NCBI RefSeq assembly: GCF_014695385.1
Contig: NZ_JACJOD010000076.1
Span: forward strand, 124,001 to 188,000
DNA: 64,000 nucleotides
Direction: 5' to 3'
Source: Trichocoleus sp. FACHB-46
GTDB taxonomy: Bacteria; Cyanobacteriota; Cyanobacteriia; FACHB-46
Made by a program: the position numbers and the translations under genes. Shown piece by piece: positions 10,012 to 30,578 of this stretch. How positions within the stretch are numbered: the stretch's first letter is position 1; each line of letters opens with the position of its first letter. The notes below the pieces were generated by a model. It was given only the letters and a program-made list of their open reading frames with translations, was not told where the DNA came from and made no database searches.

Positions 10012-11118
10012 CTAATCAGGCATTTCCTCAATGCTGCGTGGTTCACCCTTCGGCTGCTGATTCATCTCATGACGGTAACGACTGGAGGCTTCGTACACCT
10101 GCCTCCGGACTCGCTGGATTGAACCAAGTGGTCGATGCTCTGCAATGCAGTGCCAGGCGTTGAACGATAGCACTTCATCCACATAAACACGCCGCGCGGG
10201 GCTAAACGCCTCCTGCACTGGAATTGTGAGCTTGGCGATCGCCTGATAGGGACTTTCCTGCTCGGACCACGGAATCGAGGCATCTTCGATCGGCATCGTC
10301 TCCAAATTGGTGCAAAGCTGAGCACGCAGTTCATACTCGGCAGGTTGCTGACGGAAGAAATCGACAATCAGATCGCGCAGAACTGAAGAATCATTGGTTT
10401 CGACCGTTTTGCCCACGAGTGGCTGAAGACTATCTGAGATGGGAACAGCGCTAATTTTGGCAATATAGTCTCCATAACGCAAGGCAGCAGTCGTATAGTA
10501 GGTCTCTCCCAGAATGTGGGTTTCTGGCACCGTGATCCCCAACGCAGTCGGGTAGAGGTCTATTCCTACCTTTTTGGTGACGGCATTCACAGTGCGTAGG
10601 GCAGTGGTCAGAAGTTGTTGCGCCTCCTCAGGGGCACGGACCACAACCTTTTCTTGAAGTAATTGCTCATTGAGGTAGCGAGCGACATTTCCCGATGGAA
10701 AAACCGGGCGGTTGATCATCAAAAAATCTTGGGTCAGTGCGTCTGGTTCAGAGCTAAATAGCTTAGAACCTTCTACGCCGATGACCTTAATGGCCATCCC
10801 CCGAAACGCAGACATGCCATCGGGCATGATGTCACCGGGAGAGGTTGAGAAGCGAATCATTACAGGATAGGTTCGCGGTTCACGGAACAAGCCCTGCGCT
10901 AGCGGTGTAGGCAGGTTGTCATATATCGTCAGTTCCCCTTTGAGCCCACCGTGTCCTTTGGCATGGGCACCGCGCATGGCATGGCGATGTTTGTCAAACA
11001 CCCTTTGCCCCATGCGGCCAACCGAGTCTAAGGTTTCGTGAATGAGCTTGTCTTCGTCGGGTTGTTTGACTTCTACATCGTCCGAGTAGCGAACGTATTG
11101 TTCTCTGGGGCTGGGCAT
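10012..11118 (-). CDS. Catalase-family haem protein (SrpA-like, short form)
   Basis: A catalase-fold haem protein that would decompose peroxide or act as a haem peroxidase. RGAHAKGHGG gives the distal His (His52), FRGMAIKV and DFLMINRPVF match the family core, and RRQVYEASSRYR near the C terminus supplies the proximal haem-ligand Tyr (Tyr342). At 368 residues it lacks the C-terminal NADPH/flavodoxin-like part of full catalases, as in the SrpA-like group. No signal peptide is seen. The ATG start at 11118 has AGGAA upstream. Activity as a true catalase is not assured, because this branch also includes lipoxygenase-associated and peroxidase-like proteins. Confidence 0.82.
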   Translation of the reverse strand: MPSPREQYVRYSDDVEVKQPDEDKLIHETLDSVGRMGQRVFDKHRHAMRGAHAKGHGGLKGELTIYDNLPTPLAQGLFREPRTYPVMIRFSTSPGDIMPDGMSAFRGMAIKVIGVEGSKLFSSEPDALTQDFLMINRPVFPSGNVARYLNEQLLQEKVVVRAPEEAQQLLTTALRTVNAVTKKVGIDLYPTALGITVPETHILGETYYTTAALRYGDYIAKISAVPISDSLQPLVGKTVETNDSSVLRDLIVDFFRQQPAEYELRAQLCTNLETMPIEDASIPWSEQESPYQAIAKLTIPVQEAFSPARRVYVDEVLSFNAWHCIAEHRPLGSIQRVRRQVYEASSRYRHEMNQQPKGEPRSIEEMPD

Positions 11119-11204
11119 TAAGGTTCCTGGTCAGGTTGAGGGGATTATTCTAGACAGTCGTAGTTTAACAATCTGAAATGGAGTCTGCCTTCAAACAGAT
11201 TGAA

Positions 11205-14165
11205 TCAAGTAGCTTGAATCAAGCTAGAAATTACTTCAATCAATTTTTTGGGTTCGATTGGTTTGGAGACATGCTGTTGAAACCCAGCTTGTAGTGCTTG
11301 TTGCTGGTTGAAGTCTCCAGCGTAAGCAGTCAGGGCGATCGCTGCAACTTGCCCACCTTGCTCTGGCGACAACGCTCTTACCTGTTGCATCAGCATGTAG
11401 CCATTCATATCTGGCATCCCGATGTCACTCAGCAGCACATTTGGCCTAGAGTGGATGAGCATGGTCAAGGCTTCAGCAGCAGTCGTTGCGATCAGCACAG
11501 TGGCTCCAGCTTCCTTCAACACAAAGGCCACGAATTCTCGTGAATCCGGTTCATCATCCACCACTAAAACCTGAACCCCATGCAAATCGTAGTCAGATTC
11601 TGGCGATTGACGGCTCTGAGTAGCGATCGCCTGTGTGGGCATCAGTGGAAGTCTGACGGTAAAGGTAGCACCCATGCCAACCCCTGGGCTTTCAACTCCG
11701 ACCGTGCCTCCGTGTAGTTCGACCAAGTGCCGCACGATCGCTAACCCTAATCCCAGCCCGCCAAACTTTCGTGTTGTAGTGGCATCAGCTTGCCGAAAGC
11801 TGTCAAACACATAGGGCAGGAAGTCAGGGACAATTCCCTGTCCAGTATCACCGACTGTAATGTAAGCGTATGAGTCTAAGCGCTCTAGCCGAATCCTGAC
11901 TTGCCCTCCGTTTGGCGTGAACTTTACCGCATTGGAGAGCAGATTCCAAACCACTTGCTGCAACCGAGTAGAATCTCCAGAAACCAATCCCACATCTGGG
12001 TCAAGGTTGCTCTCAATTTGGATTGACTTCGCTTCTGCCGCTAGCCGTACCGTTTCCATCGCCGCTCGAATGATGAAGATCAGATTAATCGCGCTAACTT
12101 CAAGGTTGAGCTTGCCTTGGAGAATCCGGGAAACATCGAGCAAATCTTCAATCAATTCCGATTGCAGTTGGGCATTGCGTTCGATGGTCTTCAACGCCTG
12201 TTGGGTTCTGGCTGCGTCTAGCTTGCCGTTCTGCAAGAGCCTTGACCAACCCAAAATTGGGTTAAGGGGCGATCGCAATTCATGGGAGAGTACTGCCAAA
12301 AACTCATCTTTGAGCCGATTCGCGCGATCGGCTTCGACTCGGGCAGCTTGCTCACGGGTCAGGAGGTGTTCGCGTTCTGCCTCAATATGTTTTTGCTCAG
12401 TGATATTGAGTACAGTGCCAATAAAGCGTTGTGGCTGGTCGGCAGCATCAAAGTAAACTTGTCCTTTTGCCGTAATCCACCGTTCAACCCCATCTTGAAT
12501 CCCGATCGTGCGATATTCTACGCTATACTTGCCGCCCCTGGCTGGGTTCAAAACTTGTTGCACTACTTTTTCTAATCGTTCGCGATCATCAGGGTGTAGA
12601 CCTGCAAAAAAGCTCTCAATGCTGCTCTCCGCTTCTGGGGGTAAGCCAAACATGGCTTTGCAACCTTCATCCCAAATCAGTTGATTAGTGATCAAATCCC
12701 AGTCCCAGGTCCCTAACTGAGCAGATTCGATCGCCATGCGGAAGCGGTTTTCACTGTCGCGTAAGGCTGCTTCGGTGCGGGCCCGATCGACTGCTGCCCA
12801 AGTCCGCTCGGCGACTTCTTCTACTAAAGCCACTTCGTCTGGTGTCCAGTCTCGCGGTCCAGCCATGTGGACTGCTAATACCGCTACAAATTCGTCACCC
12901 TTGACCAGCGGTATGCCGATGTAGGCTCCAATCTGGATCGCAGCGTAGGCTGACCGTTGGGCTGGGGATAGGTTGGGATCGGTTGCCACATTGGGCATGT
13001 ACACCGTACGACCCGCACGGAACGCCGCAAGCAGCTTGGGTCCAAATGAATCAATGGGATAGCCGCCAGCGATCGCGTCGGCACCGTTGACGTAGTCACG
13101 CTCAACCACGTAATCAGCACCGCAAACCTCGAAGTAGGCCACGCGGTTCGCACCGAGATATTCACCCAGCACTCGGCTAGCTGTAGCCTGAATCTCCACT
13201 GGGTCAGCAAGTGGGCGTAGGGTATCGGTCAGAGCAACCCGGAAGGCATCAAACTCGGCAGCACGCCGTGAAACTTCTTCTGCTCGTTTGCGTTCACTAA
13301 TGTCATTGAACAGAACTGCCACTTTGCGCTCGTGCGGCTCACCGACCCGGAAGGCGTAAATATCAAAAAAACGTCCTAGCGCCTCAGCAGAGTTCTCAAA
13401 GCGTATCGCTACACCTGTTAGCGCAATTTTGCCGTAAACCTCCAACCAGTATGCGTCATGCTCTGGGACTAATTCGCGCATTGTTTTGCCAATCGCATCC
13501 ACCAGTCCCGTGTGTTTCTCAAACAGCGGGTTAGCTTCCAGGAAGCGGTAATCGTCTGCTTTTCCGATTTCATCAAACAAAACTTCGATCAAGCAAAAGC
13601 CTTCGTCGATCGACTCAAACAGCGATCGATACTTTGCTTCCGATTCGCGCAAGGCTTTTTCTGCTTGCTGGCGTTCGTCTTCAGCGCGCACGCGATCGCT
13701 AATGTCTCGCGAGATGCACAACAGCCTTTCAACTTGCCCATTTGCTCCCCGAATAGGGCTAATCTTGTTATCCCACCACTTAGGTTCGCCGCTCAGTGTT
13801 GGACGAAATCCTTGAAAAGTGCAAACTTTACCCGCTCTAGCCTTCACGATCGCCTGGATTGCCACAGCCTGAGTCGATCCTTGCCAGAACTCAGTCCAGG
13901 ATGTATTCAGAAACGGCGTAATGTCCTGGATGCTAAGCAGCGCTTGCCCTCGCGGACTCATGAACAGAATTCGCCCCTCTAAATCCAATACCTTGATGCA
14001 GTCATCGCTACTTTCAAGAATCTGCTGATCAAAATCCTGACTTTGGCCTCGTGCCATTGTTGGCTCTACCTGTTCAGCTTCAGCGCTGCCCTGAGCGGTG
14101 TTTTGAGTGATGTTTTGAGATAAATACTTGTCAGAAGCGACAGAGCGACGAAGGCTATCAGTCAT
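11205..14165 (-). CDS. Hybrid sensor histidine kinase (PAS-PAS-GAF-PAS-HisKA-HATPase-REC)
   Basis: A cytoplasmic multi-sensor hybrid kinase of about 986 residues. It has a PAS near residues 45-165 and a second near 170-290, a GAF at about 300-460 and a PAS_3-type domain at about 465-590. The phospho-acceptor follows in SHELRSP (near 627), then the HATPase with N box NLLSNAVKFTPNGG and G boxes GDTGQG and GGLGLGLAIV. A C-terminal receiver carries the Asp in LLSDIGMPD (near 913). No transmembrane segment is visible. The frame extends to 14246, but the ATG at 14165 has GGAG about five bases upstream. It lies 13 bases after the XRE gene, so the two are almost surely co-transcribed. The signal sensed is unknown; there is no obvious haem or bilin Cys motif in the GAF. 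Confidence 0.88.
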   Translation of the reverse strand: MTDSLRRSVASDKYLSQNITQNTAQGSAEAEQVEPTMARGQSQDFDQQILESSDDCIKVLDLEGRILFMSPRGQALLSIQDITPFLNTSWTEFWQGSTQAVAIQAIVKARAGKVCTFQGFRPTLSGEPKWWDNKISPIRGANGQVERLLCISRDISDRVRAEDERQQAEKALRESEAKYRSLFESIDEGFCLIEVLFDEIGKADDYRFLEANPLFEKHTGLVDAIGKTMRELVPEHDAYWLEVYGKIALTGVAIRFENSAEALGRFFDIYAFRVGEPHERKVAVLFNDISERKRAEEVSRRAAEFDAFRVALTDTLRPLADPVEIQATASRVLGEYLGANRVAYFEVCGADYVVERDYVNGADAIAGGYPIDSFGPKLLAAFRAGRTVYMPNVATDPNLSPAQRSAYAAIQIGAYIGIPLVKGDEFVAVLAVHMAGPRDWTPDEVALVEEVAERTWAAVDRARTEAALRDSENRFRMAIESAQLGTWDWDLITNQLIWDEGCKAMFGLPPEAESSIESFFAGLHPDDRERLEKVVQQVLNPARGGKYSVEYRTIGIQDGVERWITAKGQVYFDAADQPQRFIGTVLNITEQKHIEAEREHLLTREQAARVEADRANRLKDEFLAVLSHELRSPLNPILGWSRLLQNGKLDAARTQQALKTIERNAQLQSELIEDLLDVSRILQGKLNLEVSAINLIFIIRAAMETVRLAAEAKSIQIESNLDPDVGLVSGDSTRLQQVVWNLLSNAVKFTPNGGQVRIRLERLDSYAYITVGDTGQGIVPDFLPYVFDSFRQADATTTRKFGGLGLGLAIVRHLVELHGGTVGVESPGVGMGATFTVRLPLMPTQAIATQSRQSPESDYDLHGVQVLVVDDEPDSREFVAFVLKEAGATVLIATTAAEALTMLIHSRPNVLLSDIGMPDMNGYMLMQQVRALSPEQGGQVAAIALTAYAGDFNQQQALQAGFQQHVSKPIEPKKLIEVISSLIQAT

Positions 14166-18920: not shown

Positions 18921-21374
18921 ATGTCACCAAGTTCTAATGTTCATATTTTCGGCATTCGGCATCATGGCCCCGGTTCTGCCCGAAGTTTGTTGCAAGCGCT
19001 GCACACCCTACAACCGGATGTGATTTTGGTCGAGGGACCTCCTGATGCGGATGATGTTTTGCCGCTGTTGGCCCAGGCAGACATGAAGCCTCCGGTTGCC
19101 CTGCTAATCTATGCCCCAGATCAACCACAGCAGGCGGTTTATTACCCGTTTGCTGTTTTTTCTCCAGAATGGCAAGCCCTGCACTATGGCCTGAAACACC
19201 AGATTCCTGTCCGGTTCATGGACTTACCGCAAATGCATCAGCTAGGGGTAAGCCCGCTTGAAGAACCCGTCAGGGAACCAGGAAACAGTGACGAAAAAGA
19301 GAACATTGCCACCACCGAACCAGAGGAGCTAACCCCCGACCCAGCGATAGATCTGCAACCTGAAGGCGATCGCCCTTTTTCTCCTACAGACCCCAGTCAG
19401 GCTGTGATCTCGGATCCTCTTACCTGGTTAGCCCAAGCTGCGGGCTATAGCGATGGTGAGCGCTGGTGGGAGCACATGGTAGAACACCGTCAAAACAGCA
19501 CCGATTTGTTCGCAGCCATTCTGGAGGTGATGACAGTTCTCCGTGCCGAAGTCGAGGCTGACCCAGCTTACAGTTCTAGCCTCGCTCAACGCCATCCGCT
19601 CCAGGTTGAGCGAGAAGCTAAGCGAGAAGCTTACATGCGCCAAACCATCCGGGCCGCGCAGAAGGAAGGCAAAGAGCGGATTGCTATAGTTTGTGGGGCT
19701 TGGCACGCTCCAGCCTTAGCCGAGTTGTCAAACGCAAAAGCGGATACTGCAACCCTTAAAGGACTACTCAAAACCAAAGTTCAAACCACCTGGGTTCCCT
19801 GGACTTATGGGCGACTAGCGATGAGCAGCGGTTATGGCGCAGGCATTGAATCCCCCGGTTGGTACCATCACCTTTGGCAAGCAGGTATCTCCGACAAGCC
19901 AAGCTCTGCTTCCGCCTCTCAAATCACCATCAGTTGGATGACCTGCGTCGCTCGTCTGTTGCGGCAACAAGATCTCGATGCCTCCTCTGCCAGTGTAATT
20001 GAGGCAGTACGCTTAGCCGAAGCGTTAGCAGCTTTACGCGATCGCGCTCTACCTAGCCTCATGGAACTAAATGAAGCCACGCAAACCGTACTTTGCTTTG
20101 GGGATGCGCTGCCAATGAAGCTAATCCACGAAAAGCTGATCGTTGGCGAACGCTTGGGGGAGGTGCCCGACGAAACGCCAATGGTGCCTTTGCAGCAAGA
20201 CTTGTTACGACAACAGAAGCGCTTGCGGTTGAAAGTTGATGCCACCGAGCAAACGCTAGATTTAGATTTGCGAAAACCCACCGATCTAGAGCGATCGCAT
20301 CTCCTGCATCGGCTCAGTTTGTTCGGCATCGGTTGGGGTAAACCTCAGAGGAATGCAGGGGGCAAAGGCACCTTCCACGAGTTATGGCGCTTGCGGTGGC
20401 AACCAGAGTTTGTGATCGCTTTAATTGAGGTGGGGATTTGGGGCAACACGATTGAAGCAGCCGCGATCGCCTTTGTCTGTGATGCTGCGAATCGGGCCGC
20501 TGACTTGCCCGCTTTAACCCGACTGATTGACCAAACTCTATTAGCGAACCTGCCAGAGGCGATTCACCACTTAATGGTACGGCTGCAAGCTGAAGCCGCG
20601 ATCGCCAGTGATGTCGCTCATCTCATGGCTGCCCTTCCTCCCCTAGCCAATGTGCTGCGCTATGGCAACGTTCGTCAAATTGACACAGGCATTGTTGGCC
20701 CAGTAGTGGATGGCCTGATCACGCGCGTTTGTATTGGTTTACCCGTGGCTTGTGCCTCGCTCAATGATGAAGCGGCTGCGACTTTGTACAACTTGCTCCT
20801 AGAGATGCATCGAGTCGTGACCCTATTGCAAAAGCCAGAACATCTCGCGGACTGGCAAGCAGTCTTAACTCAACTAGCCGATCAGCGAGGCTTACATGGT
20901 TTGTTAGCGGGACGTTGCTGTCGCTTGCTCTTAGAGTCTGGGGCTTTCAGTGCCGAGGAAACTGCTCAGCGTCTTGGTCTTGCCCTTTCCAGCACCAATG
21001 AACCTGCCCAATCTGCGGCCTGGGTAGAAGGGTTATTGCAAGGCAGCGGTTTGCTGTTACTTCATAACCCAACCTCGTGGCAGGTTTTAGATGAGTGGAT
21101 TAGCACGCTATCGACCGAGCATTTCACAACGGTTTTGCCATTGCTCCGTCGTACCTTTTCGACCTTTTCAGCTCCAGAGCGGCGGCAAATGGGCGAGCAA
21201 GTGCGGCAAGGCAGAAGTGGTAGCTCAGCCAACCTTACTACATCAACTTCAAGTGAAAGCTTCGATCTCGATCGCGCCGATCAGATTTTGGCGATCGTGG
21301 CTCAACTGCTGGGAATTGAACTAGCCCTGCATCATCCCATTAATTCTGTCACCGCCGTCAAGGACACCCATTAG
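18921..21374 (+). CDS. DUF5682 family protein
   Basis: An 817-residue protein recognised as DUF5682. The N-terminal part (VHIFGIRHHGPGSAR, then DVILVEGPPDADD and later IVCGAWHAPALAEL) resembles the TraB/ChaN/EreA-like fold, in which His and Glu residues form a putative hydrolase site. A charged linker occurs near residues 115-160. The long C-terminal half is helical and repeat-like. It lies 46 bases after the MoxR gene and 2 bases before the VWA gene. Whether it is an enzyme is not known; if it is, conserved His of GIRHHGPGS and Glu of VEGPPD are the candidates to test. Confidence 0.82.
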   Translation: MSPSSNVHIFGIRHHGPGSARSLLQALHTLQPDVILVEGPPDADDVLPLLAQADMKPPVALLIYAPDQPQQAVYYPFAVFSPEWQALHYGLKHQIPVRFMDLPQMHQLGVSPLEEPVREPGNSDEKENIATTEPEELTPDPAIDLQPEGDRPFSPTDPSQAVISDPLTWLAQAAGYSDGERWWEHMVEHRQNSTDLFAAILEVMTVLRAEVEADPAYSSSLAQRHPLQVEREAKREAYMRQTIRAAQKEGKERIAIVCGAWHAPALAELSNAKADTATLKGLLKTKVQTTWVPWTYGRLAMSSGYGAGIESPGWYHHLWQAGISDKPSSASASQITISWMTCVARLLRQQDLDASSASVIEAVRLAEALAALRDRALPSLMELNEATQTVLCFGDALPMKLIHEKLIVGERLGEVPDETPMVPLQQDLLRQQKRLRLKVDATEQTLDLDLRKPTDLERSHLLHRLSLFGIGWGKPQRNAGGKGTFHELWRLRWQPEFVIALIEVGIWGNTIEAAAIAFVCDAANRAADLPALTRLIDQTLLANLPEAIHHLMVRLQAEAAIASDVAHLMAALPPLANVLRYGNVRQIDTGIVGPVVDGLITRVCIGLPVACASLNDEAAATLYNLLLEMHRVVTLLQKPEHLADWQAVLTQLADQRGLHGLLAGRCCRLLLESGAFSAEETAQRLGLALSSTNEPAQSAAWVEGLLQGSGLLLLHNPTSWQVLDEWISTLSTEHFTTVLPLLRRTFSTFSAPERRQMGEQVRQGRSGSSANLTTSTSSESFDLDRADQILAIVAQLLGIELALHHPINSVTAVKDTH

Positions 21375-21376
21375 CT

Positions 21377-22558
21377 ATGACTCAACCGTTTGACGAACGT
21401 CTCCGCCGATGGCGTTTAATTTTGGGTGGCGGATCAGCAGATGGGATTTGTACAGGTGGGGATACAGATGGGCTTGATCTGACCCTGAGTGCCGCCGACC
21501 AAGCGATGGATGATGCCTTGAGTGCTTTGTATGACAGCGATCGCCAGGGTAGCTTGGGCAGTTCTTCGCCCAAGGTCGCCCGCTGGTTGGGAGACATTCG
21601 CAGCTATTTCCCCTCATCCGTGGTCAAAGTGATGCAGCAAGATGCGCTCAACCGCTTGAATCTACGGCAAATGTTGCTAGAGCCAGAAATGCTAGAAGCT
21701 GTAGAACCAGATGTACATCTTGTCTCAAATCTGTTATCCCTCAGTGGTGTGATGCCCAGCAAGACCAAAGAGACGGCCCGGATTGTGGTACGGCGGGTGG
21801 TTGAAGAGTTACAGCGCAAATTAGAAAACCCTACTCGTCAAGCCGTAATGGGGAGCTTAAATCGAGCCATCCGCAATCGTCGTCCTCGTCACAACGAGAT
21901 TGACTGGCATCGGACCATTCGCGCCAACCTCAAGCACTACCAACCTGAATACCGCACGATCATTCCTGAAACTCGCATCGGCTATGGGCGCAAACGCTCC
22001 TCCTTGCGAGACATCATTTTGTGCGTAGATCAAAGCGGTTCAATGGCAACTTCTGTCGTCTATGCAGGCATTTTCAGTGCCGTCTTGGCATCCTTACCTG
22101 CGGTGCAAACTCGTCTAGTGGTATTCGACACCGCCGTAGTTGACCTGAGCGATCTTTTACAAGATCCTGTAGAAGTTTTGTTTGGGACTCAGCTCGGCGG
22201 TGGCACCGATATCAATCAAGCTCTTGCCTACTGCCAGACTCTCATTCGCCAACCGCAAGAAACTATCCTGGTGTTAATCAGTGACCTCTATGAAGGAGGT
22301 AATCGCCAGGAAATGTTGAAACGAGTCGCGGCTCTCTCGTCCTCTGGCGTCCAGCTTGTCACACTCTTAGCGCTAAATGATGAAGGTGCCCCTTACTACG
22401 ACCATCAAAACGCTGCATTTATGGCTAATTTAGGCATCCCTGCCTTTGCTTGCACCCCCGATCTGTTTCCAGATCTGATGGCCACAGCGATTAATCGGCA
22501 AGATCTAGGACAGTGGGCCGCTAAGCAAGACATCGTAACAGCTCGCAGCGATCGCTAA
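21377..22558 (+). CDS. VWA-domain protein (CoxE/ViaA-like)
   Basis: Last gene of the operon, 393 residues. The C-terminal von Willebrand A domain has the MIDAS motif DQSGS (Asp near residue 217), the second metal Thr in GGGTDIN and the later Asp in LISDLYEGG, so a divalent-metal adhesion site is intact. The N-terminal half is helical with basic segments (RAIRNRRPRH). VWA proteins of this kind bind MoxR ATPases and present substrates to them. It ends 11 bases from the convergent parB stop codon. Confidence 0.9.
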   Translation: MTQPFDERLRRWRLILGGGSADGICTGGDTDGLDLTLSAADQAMDDALSALYDSDRQGSLGSSSPKVARWLGDIRSYFPSSVVKVMQQDALNRLNLRQMLLEPEMLEAVEPDVHLVSNLLSLSGVMPSKTKETARIVVRRVVEELQRKLENPTRQAVMGSLNRAIRNRRPRHNEIDWHRTIRANLKHYQPEYRTIIPETRIGYGRKRSSLRDIILCVDQSGSMATSVVYAGIFSAVLASLPAVQTRLVVFDTAVVDLSDLLQDPVEVLFGTQLGGGTDINQALAYCQTLIRQPQETILVLISDLYEGGNRQEMLKRVAALSSSGVQLVTLLALNDEGAPYYDHQNAAFMANLGIPAFACTPDLFPDLMATAINRQDLGQWAAKQDIVTARSDR

Positions 22559-22569
22559 CGGCTCTACCT

Positions 22570-23547
22570 TCACTTGAGCATGGCTTCCAGTTGGCTCAGC
22601 AACTCTTCTAACTGCTGAGTTTTTTCTGGACTACTCCACAGGGCTCGATCTTTCTTCGCTTGTTGTACTACTTGGGTTAAGCGCTGCTTTAGGTCTGGCT
22701 GAGCAGCTGGTTTCGTACTGCCATTCAGAGCTTTGACTCGTTGTTTAATTTCGGACAAACTGAGAGATTTACTCACAGCGTCTTTTAATAACCGTCGTCG
22801 TGCCTCTAGATCCTTAATACTGGCAATCACAATTCCCTTGGTATAGTGAATTTTGCCTTGACGAATCCCATCTAAAACTTCGCTCGGTTTCTTTAGGAGT
22901 GGCAGTCGAGTCGCGACAAAAGATTGCCAAGTGATCCGTCCAAAGGCATCAAAGATTTGCTTGACCAGTTCTGCTTCTTGGCTAACCAAAACGTTTTGGT
23001 TAGTTGTCCCTTTAGCAGCGTTATTCATCCGATAAAGGAAACTGATCACTTCTTCAGTGCCATAACCCAACTGAATTTCCAGCAAACGCAGCGTGTTATC
23101 CAGTTCTTCTAGGGCACTAAAATCACGGCGATTGGAATTCTCAGAGATCGCAGCTTGAAATGCAGTGCGGTCGTCCCAGTCGAATACCTTAACTGGAACT
23201 GTCTCCAGCCCTAAAATTTCTGCTGCCTTAAACCGACGCAGTCCTGCAACCAGCTCATACTGGCCCGACTGTCTGGGATGGGGGCGCACCCACAGCGGCG
23301 ATCGAATGCCATTTGGTTTGATGTCGTTGAGTGCCCATTGTTGCAACTCGTCGTTGTCGTAGTAGTGACGAACTGGTTTGCCATCCGGGACAAAGGTAAA
23401 TGTACAGGCGATCGCTTTCCAGGGAATGATCTGCTCTTTGGTTTCTTCAGCAGCTTGCGTAATTTTTTGCGTAGCTGCTTGACCAAAAACAAAGCTTAGT
23501 TCCTCACTGTTGGCGATCGCGTCACTGAGTTTGCGTCGTGTCGTCAT
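22570..23547 (-). CDS. parB: ParB-like partition protein
   Basis: A ParB/Spo0J/Noc family nuclease-fold and CTPase-type protein of 325 residues. The N-terminal domain has WVRPHPRQSGQYELVAG then GLRRFKAAEILG, equivalent to the arginine-rich GERR box of ParB. The Asn/Arg segment ENSNRRDFSALEE and a helical HTH-like middle follow, and a Lys/Gln-rich C terminus probably dimerises. The ATG overlaps the parA stop by four bases. A perfect palindrome identical in its 20-bp core to one upstream of parA lies within this coding sequence (residues around NQNVLVSQ). It looks like a plasmid- or genomic-island-type partition protein; it could also act as a transcription factor. Confidence 0.85.
   Translation of the reverse strand: MTTRRKLSDAIANSEELSFVFGQAATQKITQAAEETKEQIIPWKAIACTFTFVPDGKPVRHYYDNDELQQWALNDIKPNGIRSPLWVRPHPRQSGQYELVAGLRRFKAAEILGLETVPVKVFDWDDRTAFQAAISENSNRRDFSALEELDNTLRLLEIQLGYGTEEVISFLYRMNNAAKGTTNQNVLVSQEAELVKQIFDAFGRITWQSFVATRLPLLKKPSEVLDGIRQGKIHYTKGIVIASIKDLEARRRLLKDAVSKSLSLSEIKQRVKALNGSTKPAAQPDLKQRLTQVVQQAKKDRALWSSPEKTQQLEELLSQLEAMLK
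22982..23003. promoter_or_regulatory. Candidate parS site inside parB
   Basis: TAACCAAAAC is followed directly by its exact reverse complement (20-bp core 22983-23002), extended by one matching pair to 22 bp. The core is identical to the palindrome at 24304-24323. parS sites inside or near par genes are well known in ParABS systems. Confidence 0.65.
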
Positions 23548-24233
23548 GATTCAGCCTCAAACAGCTTCAGGGCTTCGGTTAAAAGTTTGGTGTAGACGTT
23601 GGCTGCCGACTTTGGTGCAGTTCCTTTCATCCGAAACACAGTGCTACCTTGGCCCGGTGCATCTTTGATACATTGGCGATCGGGAAGCGTAGTGTCTAAA
23701 AGCGGCAATAAACCACTTTGCAAAGCTTCTTTCGCTTCTCGCAACAAAACAGTGTTGTCTTTGACAGCATTGAGGTACAGCGCCGCCACAGGTAATCCAC
23801 CCCGAATCTCTCTAGCTTGCCGCACAAACTGCACAATCTTGCCTGTGCTGGCTAAGTCAATCATGGAGTCTCGACAAGGAATTAGGACCATGTTGGAGCG
23901 AATCAGCATCGCTTTGGTGATTTCACTAGCATTACCAGGACCATCCACAATCACCACATCGTAGGACTCTGCCAGCTTGGGCAACTCATCGAAAAGAGTT
24001 TCTGGGTCGCTAATCACTTGGCAAGGCAAATCCAGCTCTTTCAACCACCCTGATGAACTCTGTTGACCGTCCGCATCGACCAAAATTGTCGAATATCCTT
24101 TTTGAGCAAACCAATCAGCTGCATGTACAGCTCCAGTGGATTTACCTGCTCCACCTTTCTGATTGGCAAAGGCTAATATCTTGGGCAACTTCGTCGCCAC
24201 ACTCACTGCTTTTACAGCTTTAGCTCTTGGCAT
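23544..24233 (-). CDS. parA: ParA-family partition ATPase
   Basis: A 229-residue deviant-Walker ATPase (ParA/MinD/Soj). Walker A' is KGGAGKST with the signature Lys; Walker A'-following ILVDADGQQSSSGW and Walker B VVIVDGP are present, as is the switch II-like NMVLIPC. It lacks the N-terminal HTH of long P1-type ParA, so it is the short type. Together with parB it would move DNA or another cargo over the nucleoid. The parAB transcript should start between 24234 and 24330, where the palindromes lie, so autoregulation by ParB or ParA is likely. Confidence 0.9.
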   Translation of the reverse strand: MPRAKAVKAVSVATKLPKILAFANQKGGAGKSTGAVHAADWFAQKGYSTILVDADGQQSSSGWLKELDLPCQVISDPETLFDELPKLAESYDVVIVDGPGNASEITKAMLIRSNMVLIPCRDSMIDLASTGKIVQFVRQAREIRGGLPVAALYLNAVKDNTVLLREAKEALQSGLLPLLDTTLPDRQCIKDAPGQGSTVFRMKGTAPKSAANVYTKLLTEALKLFEAES

Positions 24234-24375: not shown

Positions 24376-26187
24376 TTACTGTAGATGAATGACGCTGAGC
24401 CAATCTCCGCCCTCACAACCATTGCCACTAGGTCGCTCTGGCACCCCAGGCCAAATATGATTCCCATCTAAGGCGCAAAGACGACGAACGCTCAACTGTC
24501 CTGTATCTTTTCGAATCACATACAGCTTGTCCTGGGCAACCAAGCCCCAGCACAATCCTGTTACTTCAGACGCGATCGCCACAGATTCTTGAAGTGAAAT
24601 GCCATTAACACTAAAGCACTCTTGCAACTTTGGTGAAATAATACCTTGCTCTAACTCTGCTTGTAACTCTAGATCTAGATTGAATAGAACTTCTTCATTC
24701 AGAATCCAGTCTCCTCGTAGTTCGACAGTGAGCTGATCTAGTTCGCTTGCTTTTATAAATTGCTGCGCTTCAGGCCAAGTCAGCCGAACTGCGTCTGTAA
24801 ACAGGACATTTTCTAGTGCTTCGATTCCACCAATCATCTGAAACTCGTTTTCGACATCTGTTTCACCAATGCGCCAGCAAATTCGTTGCTTCGCTATGGT
24901 AGTGACTCGCACAGGCTGAATTTTAAGCTGATGAACTAGCTGCTGGCTGGCGATCGCGCCTGCATCATGACTCCAAAGCAAAACACTTCGCTGATGGAGG
25001 CCATCTACACGCACTGGTTTAGCAAACTGAATCACCAGTCCTACAGTCTGTACTAGCTCCAGAAATGCGTTTCTAGTCAGCACCTGATCATGATGCCAAC
25101 TTGCATAAATAACTCGATTCAGGTCTGTAGGCGTTGGGTGTGTAAGCGGAGATGCAGTAGAGTTAAGGCTTGAGCCTAGTTCAGTGTCACTATCTGATAC
25201 TTCTAGTAAATCTTCAGTTTGAGCGACAACAGGCGAATAGGCGCGATCGCTACCCAGAAAAAATTCCACTTTTTCTAGATACCGTAAGCACCGTTGATAC
25301 TGGTTTGGGTATTCCTCGGCTACCCGTTTCTCTAAACGTCGAGCGATCGCGGCATCTCGCTTGGCCTCCCCAATTAAGTGGGTATAGCCGAGTTGGTCAG
25401 GCTGTTGAGAGGAGAAAGCTGCTTCTGGGGAATCGAACAGACATTCAATGCTGACGTCGGCAAAGAGCGAATCTGGCAACTGCTGATGATATTCAATACA
25501 AGCTGCCAAAAAATATTGCTCAATCAGCAGGCAATCTCCTAGTTTGTTATCCATCAACGCCAAAGCTGCTTGATTGCCAGGATCAGCAGCAATTCGCAAA
25601 GCCATGTCAGCATAGTGGCGAATAAAGTCTACCTGAGCGCCGCCCATAATACCGCAGCAATAAGCCAGATTTCGGCGCTTGGCAAAATACCAGTTCCACT
25701 CATCCGGTAGCCAACCATTTGTACTTTTGACGCGATGATTAAAAATTTCTGGGCGATACCACCAGCAGGTTGCTAAGGGTTTGCCAAAGACAAAATACTC
25801 CGGGTTCTGAGCAAGCACAGGCGCAGTGTTGACGACCGGGGGCAGCGGCTTCCACAAGAACACATCGTTATCGACATGGATGAAAGGCTGGGTTTGGCTA
25901 CGGTAAGCCCATAGTTTACCTAAAATCCACCAATCTGGGTCTTGAGCTTGCAACGCATTTAACTCAGTTGTAACGCTATCAAACTCTAGCCCCAAGCCAT
26001 CGATCAGCATTTTGGCTCCAGCATCATCCGTCACCAGCGCAGTTTCAGGATAATGTTTTCGCGCGGTTTCGAGCGACAAGATCCAAGCGAGAAGATGATG
26101 TTTTTCACTAAACCAGATGGTTTGGCGATGCGATCGGAAAGGTTTTGTCCAGAACGACCACACCGAGCGGGCGATCGCTTGGTTCAT
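24376..26187 (-). CDS. DUF6734-like glycosyltransferase-fold protein with long C-terminal extension
   Basis: A 603-residue protein. The first 330 residues resemble DUF6734 and GT-A fold sugar transferases: an N-terminal SFWTKPF, a nucleotide-binding-like region ALVTDDAGAKML, and HVDNDVFLWKPL with a DND triad that could be the metal-binding DxD. The C-terminal 250 residues are unlike any family I recognise. No signal peptide or membrane helix is seen. Its ATG overlaps the stop of the upstream TIG/CARDB gene by four bases, so the two are coupled. It may glycosylate a protein of this cluster, but no acceptor is evident. Family assignment rests on recognition of the pattern and is moderate. Confidence 0.65.
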   Translation of the reverse strand: MNQAIARSVWSFWTKPFRSHRQTIWFSEKHHLLAWILSLETARKHYPETALVTDDAGAKMLIDGLGLEFDSVTTELNALQAQDPDWWILGKLWAYRSQTQPFIHVDNDVFLWKPLPPVVNTAPVLAQNPEYFVFGKPLATCWWYRPEIFNHRVKSTNGWLPDEWNWYFAKRRNLAYCCGIMGGAQVDFIRHYADMALRIAADPGNQAALALMDNKLGDCLLIEQYFLAACIEYHQQLPDSLFADVSIECLFDSPEAAFSSQQPDQLGYTHLIGEAKRDAAIARRLEKRVAEEYPNQYQRCLRYLEKVEFFLGSDRAYSPVVAQTEDLLEVSDSDTELGSSLNSTASPLTHPTPTDLNRVIYASWHHDQVLTRNAFLELVQTVGLVIQFAKPVRVDGLHQRSVLLWSHDAGAIASQQLVHQLKIQPVRVTTIAKQRICWRIGETDVENEFQMIGGIEALENVLFTDAVRLTWPEAQQFIKASELDQLTVELRGDWILNEEVLFNLDLELQAELEQGIISPKLQECFSVNGISLQESVAIASEVTGLCWGLVAQDKLYVIRKDTGQLSVRRLCALDGNHIWPGVPERPSGNGCEGGDWLSVIHLQ

Positions 26188-27704
26188 AAGAGATTACTTC
26201 CGATCGCCGTTCCCGAACCATAGTAACCAGGCACAACGACGGTGAAACTATCAGTGCTAGTCACGGTTCCACCTCTTGTCTGAACTGTGACTAGCACTTT
26301 TACCCCTCGTGAGAAGGACGGCACTCTCACCATAATCTGTGTTGCAGTCGGCGTACCGACTATAGTGCCATTCACAGAACCAAACCGAACGGCAGCTGTC
26401 CCCACAGTGAAGTTTTGGCCAGACAGAGTGATAATATCCCCTGCCTTGCCAAATTTGGGCGTAAACTGATCCGGCGCTGCATTGAAGAGGGGAGCAGGAG
26501 GTGGCGGAGGATTCACTACAAACTCACGCACAAATTGATTATTCGTGCGTAATTGATCGAAAATTTGATTACCTGGATCAGCAGTGAAACTAATTTGGTA
26601 AGTGCCAGGTTGGTCAAACTTGTGGGTAAACAGGAGCGCACCATCAGTTGATTGCTGTTGCGATCGCAGAGCCGTATGGGAATACAGCACTTGCTTAATA
26701 GATTGGGTAGGCGTTGCCTGGATATCGTCTGAGTCATCCACTACAGCTCGTAGCATCATCGAACCCGCAGAGTTTAGTGGCGGCACCCTACGAATTCCGA
26801 CCTGAGAGACTTCCCAGCTAACATCAAAGCCCGCAGCATCCACGTTACCTTGGTTACTTAGAATTGCTCGAAATGTCACTTCTTGCCCCGCTACCAATGG
26901 GGTAGGTGAATCTAGCACAACATCTTGAACATTCAGATCCACAATATCGGCTCGCCAGAGTAGCAGATTGGTTTTCTGGTTCGCAGTTTTCACCACCACC
27001 AACCCGCCACCAATGACATTTCGCGGCATTTCTACCGTCAAGCGACTATTAGTGCGATCGCGAATTCTAGCCAGTTTATCTTGAAAGTAAACTTCAACCG
27101 TATCTGTTGGCGCACCGAAGTTGGCACCATCAAGGATCACAGTGCTTCCAGGAGCACCGCTCTCCGGTTTGATTTGCGTAATCAATGGTAAGTTGCGCCA
27201 CAAACGCAACCGCGTTTCACCTAACCCGCTTTTAGACGAAATCTCTGTCAGCATGGCAGGCGTTTGGGTTGCCACTTCCAAATCATTGACGGAGTGAATC
27301 CCAACCGTTTTGAGTTTCTGGATCTCGACACTCTGGATTTCTGGCAGGTCTTCTAGGCGTCGATAATCACCCGTTTCCAGATCGACAGACTTACGGGTTT
27401 CTTGAACTTGGGTATCGAGGGCGGGCGTGAAACCTAGCTTTAAAACAGTAGCCCCCGTTTGACCAGGAGCTACGGTGCGAAACATGAGATGGCCGTTGGG
27501 GTCGCGGCGAACATCCACTTGAAGATCCAGGTTTAACTGGTTGACCATCATGGACAGTCGTCGATTTTGCGACTTGAGAATTAAGGTATCTTGAGCTTGA
27601 TCTAACTCTGCCGTGATCACTTGGATCAGTTCAGATAACTCCCACTCATCATTGGGTAGAGCAGGAGGTTCATTGGGAGTCAGGGGGCGATCGCTATTGG
27701 TCAC
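26184..27704 (-). CDS. TIG/CARDB multidomain protein with trypco2-like N terminus
   Basis: A 506-residue protein with an unusual domain chain. Residues about 17-95 (WELSELIQVITAELDQAQ, then LNLDLQVDVRRDPNGHLMF) resemble the trypsin-co-occurring domain 2 (trypco2) found in bacterial conflict-type protease systems. Residues about 115-165 look like a helix-hairpin-helix (LKTVGIHSVNDL...SGLGETRLR). Then come an IPT/TIG domain (about 170-240), a CARDB-like Ig domain (about 245-400) and a second TIG (about 405-495). No signal peptide is visible, although TIG and CARDB are usually found in surface proteins. The start is GTG at 27704 with a poor ribosome-binding site. The trypco2 call is by eye only. 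Confidence 0.7.
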   Translation of the reverse strand: MTNSDRPLTPNEPPALPNDEWELSELIQVITAELDQAQDTLILKSQNRRLSMMVNQLNLDLQVDVRRDPNGHLMFRTVAPGQTGATVLKLGFTPALDTQVQETRKSVDLETGDYRRLEDLPEIQSVEIQKLKTVGIHSVNDLEVATQTPAMLTEISSKSGLGETRLRLWRNLPLITQIKPESGAPGSTVILDGANFGAPTDTVEVYFQDKLARIRDRTNSRLTVEMPRNVIGGGLVVVKTANQKTNLLLWRADIVDLNVQDVVLDSPTPLVAGQEVTFRAILSNQGNVDAAGFDVSWEVSQVGIRRVPPLNSAGSMMLRAVVDDSDDIQATPTQSIKQVLYSHTALRSQQQSTDGALLFTHKFDQPGTYQISFTADPGNQIFDQLRTNNQFVREFVVNPPPPPAPLFNAAPDQFTPKFGKAGDIITLSGQNFTVGTAAVRFGSVNGTIVGTPTATQIMVRVPSFSRGVKVLVTVQTRGGTVTSTDSFTVVVPGYYGSGTAIGSNLL

Positions 27705-27746
27705 AGAAGCTATGTCACGTGATGAGATGGTAAGAACTAAAAGAAT

Positions 27747-28076
27747 TTAGTCCAGAGGATTTAGCTTTAAGGTAACTCTAAAATGGCTCAAGGCATTGAC
27801 TGATTTTGGCACCAGGGGTGAAGGTAAGGTAGTCATCAGTCGACTCCCTGACAGCGAATTGCCCGATCGCGGCGAGAGATGAAAATGCACCGGGATCGCG
27901 ATCGCAATTTCATCAAGCTTTAAGCTGGGGAGAGCCATTTCCGAAGTCCAGTTCTGAAGATTAGACTCAGCTACTAGTTCCTCAACTTTATTAGGCGCTA
28001 GTTCATGCGTCACCGGAATTTGAGAAATCTCCCCAGCACTCATCACCACTAAGTCACTAAAGCGGATAGCAGGCAT
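27747..28076 (-). CDS. Small protein of unknown family
   Basis: A 109-residue protein, beta-rich in its second half, with MALPSLKLDEIAIAIPVHFHL and a Ser/Gly-rich loop before a last strand FRVTLKLNP. The central segment is reminiscent of the DUF2589-type beta domain, which I could not confirm. No signal peptide. GAGGG lies a few bases before the ATG at 28076. It lies 42 bases before the TIG/CARDB gene on the same strand and is probably part of its operon. Confidence 0.6.
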   Translation of the reverse strand: MPAIRFSDLVVMSAGEISQIPVTHELAPNKVEELVAESNLQNWTSEMALPSLKLDEIAIAIPVHFHLSPRSGNSLSGSRLMTTLPSPLVPKSVNALSHFRVTLKLNPLD

Positions 28077-28104
28077 TCATACCCTCGAAAAATTGGAATT
28101 AGCT

Positions 28105-28190
28105 AACCTCTCCCCAACCCCTCTCCGCAGTAAAGAGAGACTTTAAATCTCGCTCCCCTTCCCTTGAGGGAAGGGGCTGGGGGTTACGTT
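28105..28190. repeat. C-rich/G-rich imperfect inverted intergenic repeat
   Basis: AACCTCTCCCCAACCCCTC at the left is balanced by CCTTGAGGGAAGGGGCTGGGGGTTA at the right as an imperfect hairpin, with TCCCTTGAGGGA-type internal symmetry. Repeats of this look (CCCCAACCCCTCTCC ... GGGGCTGGGGGTTA) are common in intergenic DNA of cyanobacteria and many other bacteria, and are considered small dispersed MITE-like elements. Confidence 0.6.
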
Positions 28191-28238
28191 TAGCTGTGTC
28201 TAACTGTTAACGCTAGTGCACACCGGAGGAGTGAAGCT

Positions 28239-29477
28239 CTAGACAATGGGAGCCAGATCCGACTCTTTCACCGTACCTGTACCATCGTTAAGCGGCTTGT
28301 AGTCAGTCTTAAACTTCAGAGTCACTTGACCGCTCATTTGGGTCAGCGTTTCGATGTTGCCCACCGTAGTTTGATCTACAGTACTGACGCTCAGGTTGTT
28401 GTAGTAAGCGCTGAGGCTAGCATTGCCCCAACCCCACATAGCACCTGCTTTTAGCGAACCACCGAAGCTAGTGCGATTAGTGTTGGTCGTGTTTGTGGTG
28501 GTGGAGTCAGTAGAGGACACCCGGAACAGCAGCTTGGTATTGATTTCGCCTTCGGTGATGACGATCCGGGCCATACCTTCACGCGCCATCTGCCGCAGTT
28601 GGTTCATGCCATCCTTGGCGAGACCATGCTTAACCGCTGTTCGAATAGTAGCAATATCGGTAGCCAGATAATTCTTTTTACCCGTGCTGTCTGCATCACC
28701 AATGCCTGCGGGATCATCTTGATCTAGCTTGCCTTTGTCTTCGTCTTTAATTTGACCATTTGCAACAGAGTCACCCAGGCCGAACACCTCCAGGATGTCC
28801 TCTCGGTAGCCACCTGTAACAGGGGCTAGGAAGTAAAGCCGCTTCAGGTGATAGGAGCGTCGAGGTTGACCCGTTGCAACCTTAAAGGTGGTAGCTGTGC
28901 CGTTGGTAGTCTCTTCAAACGCCATTTCCGCTAGCTTTTCCGAAATTGCATCTTCCGAAACGTTGTCGGAGGCAAATTCCTTCAAGCTCTTGGTTAAGTC
29001 AGATACCATTTCACTGTAGGCTTTCATCTGATCAACGGTAGCTTTGATGATCGAGTTGAAAGTGCCTGTAATTAATCCTTGGGTGAAATCAACAAATGCC
29101 ATCCCGGTTTGCTGGGAGCCTCTTACCGCTGCATCGATCGCCCGCTCTGTCGTGCCATTATTACCTAGGGTTAACGATTCACCCACAGGTTGGACTAAGC
29201 CCATCGCCATCGATTCCAGATTGCCTTCTTGGGGTCGCAAGAATTCCAACAAGGTATCTTGCACAATTGTGGTCACACCTTGGCGCAAGAGTTCGCGTTC
29301 TGCTTCATCACTTCCGATGTTTTCCACATTGCGCTCGATCACTTCCATCAAGCGCTCGACACCACCTGCCACCGCTTCATCTACAGGAGCGATCGCTTCA
29401 GGCTGAGGTTGTAGTTCCATATCAGCACTCAGGTTCTCAGGGTTGGAATCGTTATTTTGCTTGCGATTACGAGCCAT
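28239..29477 (-). CDS. Hypothetical protein of the peptidase/TIG cluster
   Basis: A 412-residue protein with no family I can name. The N-terminal half is helical: an acidic start, then a segment VDFTQGLITGTFNSIIK followed by TVDQMKAYSEMVSDLTKSLKEF, which looks like an amphipathic or membrane-active helix pair. The middle has RRSYHLKRLYFLAPVTGGYRED. The C terminus is low-complexity Ser/Thr/Asn followed by alternating strands with Gly/Trp/Tyr (GAMWGWGNASLSAYY, QVTLKFKTDYKPL). A strong AAGGAGA lies eight bases before the ATG, so it should be well translated. No signal peptide. It sits between the peptidase and the TIG/CARDB gene. Confidence 0.65.
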   Translation of the reverse strand: MARNRKQNNDSNPENLSADMELQPQPEAIAPVDEAVAGGVERLMEVIERNVENIGSDEAERELLRQGVTTIVQDTLLEFLRPQEGNLESMAMGLVQPVGESLTLGNNGTTERAIDAAVRGSQQTGMAFVDFTQGLITGTFNSIIKATVDQMKAYSEMVSDLTKSLKEFASDNVSEDAISEKLAEMAFEETTNGTATTFKVATGQPRRSYHLKRLYFLAPVTGGYREDILEVFGLGDSVANGQIKDEDKGKLDQDDPAGIGDADSTGKKNYLATDIATIRTAVKHGLAKDGMNQLRQMAREGMARIVITEGEINTKLLFRVSSTDSTTTNTTNTNRTSFGGSLKAGAMWGWGNASLSAYYNNLSVSTVDQTTVGNIETLTQMSGQVTLKFKTDYKPLNDGTGTVKESDLAPIV

Positions 29478-29654
29478 GTCTAAAGATCTCCTTGATGTTT
29501 AATAAATCCGAGGCAATTCGACCGCTGAGCACCAGCAAATCAGCAGAAACTATTTGAATCTGTTTTTCCTGATTTGGAGCTTGCAGTGACAGTCAAAAAC
29601 TTTTAGCGAGAAAGTAACGATGTTGTTTGTTCACATCGCAGATAGCGCCTGGTT

Positions 29655-30578
29655 TTAGCAGTTGAGGCCAAATACGCCAGTATCTACCCAGTCCTGTTTG
29701 AGGAGCACCCACCAATCCACCGAAAGTCCACCCTGAATGTAGCTGTAGGGTAACCAACCGTACCCATCTTTACCCCAGCCTGTGCCCCAGGAATTCCGGA
29801 TTAAGATCGCGCCTTTGCTTTTGCTGCCATCAGGTTTAGAATGCTCGATCACGATAGAGTCGTCATAGCCCACAGCTACCATTGCATGCCCTCCCTTGGG
29901 GCGATCGCTGTTGCATGGATATGGCAATTGACCGAGGGTTTCAGGCCGACTAGCATGCATCAAAGGTGTATCAAAGAGCATGGTGCCGAAAGCTAAGGGA
30001 AAACCTGCTGCTAATTGAGTTTTGATCGCCATCAACAACTCGGCAGTATCAATGTCTGGGGTATCTAGACGGACATAGTTAACTGATTTGTAGTTAGCAG
30101 CGAAGGCATAGCAAAACGCGGGTGGTTCTTCGTCTTGCTTGCTAAGGTCGTAGGGCCAGTACTCCTCTGGCGGAGCTCCAAATAATCGTAAAGCTCCCAT
30201 CGCAGTGCGTAAAAACACTCCAACATTGCCTTGGGCTCGCAACAAATTTTTGGTGGCTTTATAAAGAAACAAGCGGGAGCGATGGCTGTACTCACTGAAA
30301 GCCTTTTGTTCTAAGTACTCGGCAATGGCGCTCACAACATGAGCAGTGCAAGACTCGATTTTGCCTTGATCTTCAACTGGAGAGAACCCTGAGCGTAGAT
30401 CAACGAAAGCGGGTAGATCTAACTTTTTGAATTGCCTTTTTTCAATTAGTTCTGCAGATTGACCCATGACAGTTTCCATCATGGGTCGGATAGTTTTACT
30501 GGTCAACCTTAGATCTCGATGATCAGGATAATCGCGTATCCAGCCCATGCCATGTTGACGACTAGCGTTTCCATTCAT
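29655..30578 (-). CDS. Papain-family (C1A) cysteine peptidase
   Basis: A 307-residue peptidase with all catalytic elements: Gln71 and Cys77 in DQGKIESCTAH, His231 in GGHAMVAVGY and Asn262 in IRNSWGTGWG. The N terminus (MGWIRDYPDHRDL) is typical of bacterial and archaeal C1A proteins of the short type. There is no signal peptide and no visible inhibitory propeptide, so it is expected in the cytoplasm, unusual for an active papain-like enzyme unless it is kept in check by a partner. It heads a minus-strand series of unknown genes whose products could be substrates or regulators. Confidence 0.88.
   Translation of the reverse strand: MNGNASRQHGMGWIRDYPDHRDLRLTSKTIRPMMETVMGQSAELIEKRQFKKLDLPAFVDLRSGFSPVEDQGKIESCTAHVVSAIAEYLEQKAFSEYSHRSRLFLYKATKNLLRAQGNVGVFLRTAMGALRLFGAPPEEYWPYDLSKQDEEPPAFCYAFAANYKSVNYVRLDTPDIDTAELLMAIKTQLAAGFPLAFGTMLFDTPLMHASRPETLGQLPYPCNSDRPKGGHAMVAVGYDDSIVIEHSKPDGSKSKGAILIRNSWGTGWGKDGYGWLPYSYIQGGLSVDWWVLLKQDWVDTGVFGLNC

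Follow-up and report, generated by a model that had tools for sequence, protein, structure and literature searches.

Kaur et al. introduced Trypco2 as a domain that is encoded next to trypsin-like peptidases in conflict systems under regulation (PMC7159879). In the Trypco-trypsin/VMAP MoxR-vWA ternary systems described there, Trypco2 is encoded beside a peptidase, the distribution is patchy and the partner domains vary. These properties are shared by the gene module analyzed here, one copy of which is located in the window, i.e. the complete stretch of 64,000 nucleotides of Trichocoleus sp. FACHB-46 DNA that was investigated. The NucA-trypsin system (Kaur et al. 2020, System 3) is also similar, since it combines several peptidases, including S8 enzymes, with wall-attacking domains and occurs in alphaproteobacteria.

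The cluster in the window encodes a papain-like peptidase (C1), a 412-aa protein (P412), a 109-aa protein (P109), a 506-aa protein with Trypco2, helix-hairpin-helix (HhH), TIG and CARDB domains (TIG protein) and a glycosyltransferase-like protein (GT) (Table 1). It differs from the Trypco-trypsin/VMAP systems in several respects. The peptidase of the module is of the C1A or S8 type, not trypsin, and trypsin domains were found only inside large proteins of two related loci (L026 and L038), not as a peptidase encoded beside the Trypco gene. MoxR, vWA and VMAP are absent from the window cluster; a DUF5682 and VWA_CoxE pair is encoded nearby on the other strand, but not beside the orthologous cluster L022. 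Furthermore, Trypco2 is a small separate protein in the ternary systems and is fused to HhH-TIG-CARDB here, and the P412 family is not mentioned in the available description. Thus, the theme of an adaptor plus a peptidase is common to both, but since the trypsin and MoxR-vWA-VMAP core is missing, the window cluster is not a canonical MoxR-vWA/Trypco-trypsin system. The NucA-trypsin system differs in that no NucA nuclease was present among the proteins scanned here, and neither P412 nor the Trypco2-TIG core protein is part of its description as available to us. The module looks like a conflict or defence system that has not been described before.

The five genes and their products

The five open reading frames form a 6.2-kb run on the minus strand (24376-30578), in agreement with the preliminary description of this DNA. 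Orthologues exist for all of them, and dN/dS values against these orthologues are 0.06-0.21 where dS is not saturated, indicating purifying selection; for the C1 gene dS is saturated, with pN at 0.11-0.13 and pS at 0.80. The five reading frames are therefore genuine selected genes. Hydropathy analysis (Kyte-Doolittle) detected no signal peptide in the five proteins, and none of their 19-residue stretches is hydrophobic enough to form a membrane helix. In P412 the highest 19-residue mean was 1.02, and the membrane-active-looking helices proposed earlier were not confirmed. None of the five proteins had a match in PADLOC-DB 2.0.0, and for their relatives the matches were limited to generic ones of the subtilase, IetS and trypsin types and to weak hits. 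The cluster itself contains neither a sensor NTPase nor an EAD nor a PADLOC defence gene, and adjoining it no secretion or tail gene was recognised. The cluster is flanked by the DUF5682/VWA_CoxE pair and a ParA/ParB pair, and the latter is likewise not found beside the cluster in L022. Between the P412 and P109 genes a GC-rich inverted repeat was noticed by eye, which might be mobile or act as a terminator.

Table 1. Location of the features discussed (window positions unless a locus is named)
Feature	Position	Strand	Remarks
C1A (xylellain-type) papain-like cysteine peptidase (C1)	29655..30578	-	307 aa; Pfam, 3OIS alignment, hydropathy
P412	28239..29477	-	412 aa; family without Pfam or PDB match
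GC-rich inverted repeat	about 28150-28190		CCCCTTCCCTcAAGGGAAGGGG
P109	27747..28076	-	109 aa; conserved, directly upstream of the TIG gene
Trypco2/HhH/TIG adaptor-like protein	26184..27704	-	506 aa; GTG start; Pfam, profile-profile
Trypco2 domain of the 506-aa protein	27477..27644	-	residues 21-76; Pfam, profile-profile
DUF6734 glycosyltransferase-like protein (GT)	24376..26187	-	603 aa; Pfam
C-terminal part of GT	24376-25263	-	295 aa
ParA/ParB pair	22570-24233	-	flanks the cluster
DUF5682 + VWA_CoxE pair	18921-22558	+	flanks the cluster
Tagged open reading frames in related loci	L027:2927-5725; L029:263-5075; L030:46-1098; L068:14654-17284; L070:2653-3825; L074:13458-19098		N-terminal tag, see text

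The 307-aa protein matches Peptidase_C1 with a score above the Pfam cut-off (E=1.3e-7). Its closest solved C1 enzyme is 3OIS, which we take to be xylellain, and Gln71, Cys77, His231 and Asn262 align with the catalytic residues of this structure (E=5.6e-27). The peptidase is thus intact, as had been proposed. In xylellain an N-terminal segment covers the active site. C1 has an N-terminal segment with the sequence GWIRDYPDHRD, and its residues 7-26 show a weak similarity to the N-terminal part of 3OIS, in a local alignment that is not significant on its own. The earlier statement that the enzyme has neither signal peptide nor propeptide is therefore correct for the signal peptide and not quite right for the propeptide. 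A hydrophobic N-terminal segment is lacking in C1 of the window and in the C1 proteins of G137 and G170, which does not fit the exported nutrient protease named in the preliminary description as the finding that would contradict it. With the Gln-Cys-His-Asn set, an N-terminal segment of the form GxxxDxxDxRD and no signal peptide, C1 belongs to the short bacterial C1A peptidases called xylellain-type (PMC10380794); what sets it apart is its position beside the P412/Trypco2-TIG core.

The TIG protein has the architecture Trypco2 (21-76), HhH-like (about 115-172), TIG, CARDB and TIG, and the GTG start of its gene is conserved in relatives. The proposed domains were found with different clarity: the two TIG stretches (3e-18) and CARDB (3.5e-8) exceed the cut-off, and the HhH part gives only weak matches (TfoX_C 0.014, DUF4332 0.035). 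The match to Trypco2 (PF19631) is below the Pfam cut-off of 24.2 bits for the window protein (E=0.0023, 18.6 bits) and above it for a relative (G045/L025, 25.4 bits). Comparison of a profile of the TIG protein N-termini with one of independent Trypco2 proteins yielded P=9e-5 over 80 columns, while the controls gave P=0.3 (reversed profile) and 0.57 (S8 profile); in addition, window-type TIG proteins score above every reversed control with the Trypco2 HMM. Homology of the TIG protein N-terminus to Trypco2, which had been suggested from likeness alone, is well supported by these profiles at the family level. P109 might tentatively be regarded as a small Trypco2-like domain (P=0.0016 against the Trypco2 profile). 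A P109-like protein is present in most cyanobacterial copies of the module, and the counterpart in loci with an S8 peptidase, similar in position and sequence pattern, matches the profile of the TIG protein N-termini (P=8e-5).

The coupling of the transferase to the TIG gene, also part of the preliminary description, is seen in a 4-nt overlap of both genes (26184-26187). GT is a clear member of the DUF6734 family (PF20508) over residues 8-301 (E=1.3e-54, 186 bits, cut-off 27). It differs from other members in this coupling to an adaptor gene and in its C-terminal extension of 295 aa: the orthologues stop after about 310 aa, and no good relative of the extension was found among the 30 genomes searched.

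P109 and P412 had been considered as novel types, and indeed neither has a credible Pfam match. For P412 a member-by-member scan likewise gave no consistent Pfam match, and the PDB contains no sequence relative. A suspected relationship to DUF2589 was dropped, since this family was not listed in the scan, and profile-profile comparison gave no homology to Trypco2 (P about 0.6). AlphaFold models of the window protein and a relative reached pLDDT values of 52.7 and 62.1, and these models, which are of low confidence, indicate long helices and, after them, a possible long beta-hairpin at the C terminus. Fold searches returned nothing significant (best VIA-align Z 4.2, not meaningful), be it among solved or viral structures. 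Concerning pore formation, P412 has no hydrophobic helix, and the long beta-hairpin is predicted at low confidence only.

The module in other genomes

Relatives of P412 were found in 12 of 291 cyanobacteria with a single-sequence search and in 15 of 390 cyanobacterial genomes with a profile search, a patchy distribution. Every sufficiently flanked locus encodes both P412 and the Trypco2/HhH/TIG protein, except L069, a degenerate second copy. The hosts of this core are cyanobacteria, Rhodobacteraceae and a Burkholderia with a megaplasmid. The order P412-P109-TIG-GT recurs in four genomes (window, L022, L023 and L024/L034, the latter two being one Leptolyngbya record), and L033 contains P412, P109 and the start of the TIG gene before the contig ends. 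Thus, the gene set is conserved, as proposed, apart from C1, which is not an obligate member.

Most loci encode an S8 (subtilisin) peptidase together with the core (L026-L031, L036-L038, L068-L070, L089, L090); the C1A peptidase is found in the branch of the window. In Okeania (L036), Ruegeria (L038) and Burkholderia (L089) the S8 and TIG genes share 4 nt. Okeania has P412, P109 and TIG proteins of the window type together with an S8 peptidase. Since the same core occurs with S8 in distant relatives, S8 and C1 seem to be two alternative additions to it. With S8 in nearly all distant relatives, the link to peptidases is stronger than could be known from the window sequence. The S8 homologue of G137 (L067) does not adjoin a module. 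Taken together, these comparisons show that a P412-family protein and a Trypco2-HhH-TIG protein form a constant core, which is accompanied by an S8 or C1A peptidase and exchangeable downstream genes.

C1 itself is linked to the module in four genomes. An intact C1 beside an intact gene set is present only in the window and L024/L034, and it adjoins P412 in the window and L024; in L022 it is broken by an internal deletion, and in L118 it lies beside degraded TIG and GT pieces. It is absent from L023 and L033, two loci that keep P412-P109-TIG. Hence, C1 travels with the module but can be dispensed with. All C1 proteins at least 77% identical to that of the window are encoded beside the module or its remnants; identity drops to 54% or less for the next relatives, which are located elsewhere. 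Relatives at about 40-52% identity adjoin WD40/nSTAND1 proteins. In three loci (L125, L126 and L127) the C1 peptidase has a length of about 1000 aa and is encoded next to WD40 or nSTAND1-WD40 proteins, and in L125 and L126 it contains peptidoglycan-binding repeats. Of 281 cyanobacterial genomes, 69 encode C1A peptidases belonging to this broad family.

Outside the window the module has toxin-like partners (EndoU, Amidase_2, M15, C70, C92 and trypsin). S8-type operons encode EndoU as well as peptidoglycan-binding and SLH domains, and those of L026, L038 and Burkholderia contain wall-degrading, C70 or trypsin domains. Very large multi-enzyme proteins with Amidase_2, C92 and C70 are found in comparable operon settings in a cyanobacterium (L026:14535-19145, with M15 and trypsin in addition) and on the Burkholderia megaplasmid (L089:7143-10907). 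Downstream of the Trypco2-TIG gene, 11 open reading frames carry an N-terminal NRL[LF]xLE-like motif ([NS][RS]L[LMF]xLE), compared to 0 of 575 other reading frames scanned; since one gene appears twice among them (L074:18046-19098 and L030:46-1098), they represent ten distinct genes. This motif may serve as a tag for docking or sorting.

The Tolypothrix copy of the module is located on one or more mobilizable plasmids and the Burkholderia copy on a megaplasmid. In the genus of the window one genome lacks the module and another carries it at a different site. There, the module proteins are 71-80% identical to those of the window, compared to 98% for a flanking methyltransferase, and dS is 1.0-2.0 for the cluster and 0.45 for the flanking gene. 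Divergence and location thus indicate that the module moves or was acquired separately. An origin from phages was rejected: neither phage records nor viral contigs contain a match, and no convincing PHROG was found for P412.

Possible functions of the module

We tentatively interpret the five genes as a rare, mobile conflict module that is coupled to a protease and centred on a Trypco2 adaptor, here in the version with a C1A peptidase; we give this reading somewhat less than an even chance. It is based on the co-occurrence of P412 and Trypco2-TIG proteins with S8 or C1, on the identity of Trypco2, a domain defined from peptidase-linked conflict systems (PMC7159879), on the patchy spread, the plasmid and megaplasmid carriage and the differing site within the genus, and on the toxin-like partners elsewhere and the WD40/nSTAND1 neighbours of distant C1 relatives. 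In such a module the TIG protein would act as a scaffold that keeps the peptidase near its target. The peptidase would otherwise be restrained by its own N-terminal segment until a trigger sets it free, and the freed enzyme would cut or release a partner, most likely P412 or a downstream protein, with harm to the invader or the infected cell as the presumed result. GT would be a variable effector or modifier in the window copy. Several observations argue against this interpretation: the cluster lacks a sensor NTPase, an EAD and any PADLOC gene, two loci retain P412-P109-TIG without C1, no fold is recognisable for P412, and the TIG, CARDB, SLH and solute-binding domains of these or related proteins are of types that are usually extracellular.

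The main rival is assembly or maturation of a cell-surface or extracellular structure, which is possible but rather unlikely. P412 would then provide structural subunits, S8 or C1 the maturation protease and TIG, CARDB and SLH the surface parts; GT would decorate the structure, and the tagged or toxin-like downstream proteins would be its cargo. The tandem P412 paralogues (four close together in L026 and four in L089, where a fifth match, E=5e-63, lies at 10915-12060) are consistent with such subunits, as are the tag common to downstream proteins, the fusion of SLH and DUF1565 to the TIG protein of L036, an SLH protein encoded in L073, a downstream block, and a peptidoglycan-binding domain gene adjoining S8 in L028 and L090. 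However, the five window proteins have no signal peptide or membrane segment, secretion and tail genes were not recognised beside the cluster, and no solved or viral structure was matched. Housekeeping-type proteolysis or protein modification without a conflict role, e.g. regulated turnover combined with glycosylation, would agree with the purifying selection and the frequency of the broad C1A family, but is improbable given the very patchy presence, the plasmid carriage, the different locations in sister genomes, the degraded copy in L118 and the toxin-like partners. It is less probable still that C1 is a chance neighbour and that P412-P109-TIG-GT alone is the functional unit: the loci with a missing or broken C1 point this way, but all close C1 relatives lie beside the module or its remnants, and S8 accompanies the same core in distant relatives. 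A protease-coupled conflict module is the most likely function among those considered. A bolder version of it, which we regard as a long shot, would be a mobile self-destruct or counter-invader machine of cyanobacteria and proteobacteria, in which the Trypco2-TIG scaffold holds an interchangeable S8 or papain-like protease and P412 is a protease-activated, membrane-breaching effector that enables wall-degrading or other tagged cargo to act.

The module connects P412, a family of uncharacterised proteins, and Trypco2, a domain recognised as a putative adaptor, with proteases that can replace each other, all within a mobile unit that crosses phyla, and its five-gene version in the window is compact and small enough for direct testing. 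If it is a conflict system, papain and subtilisin enzymes would be added to the trypsin and caspase enzymes of protease-triggered defence.
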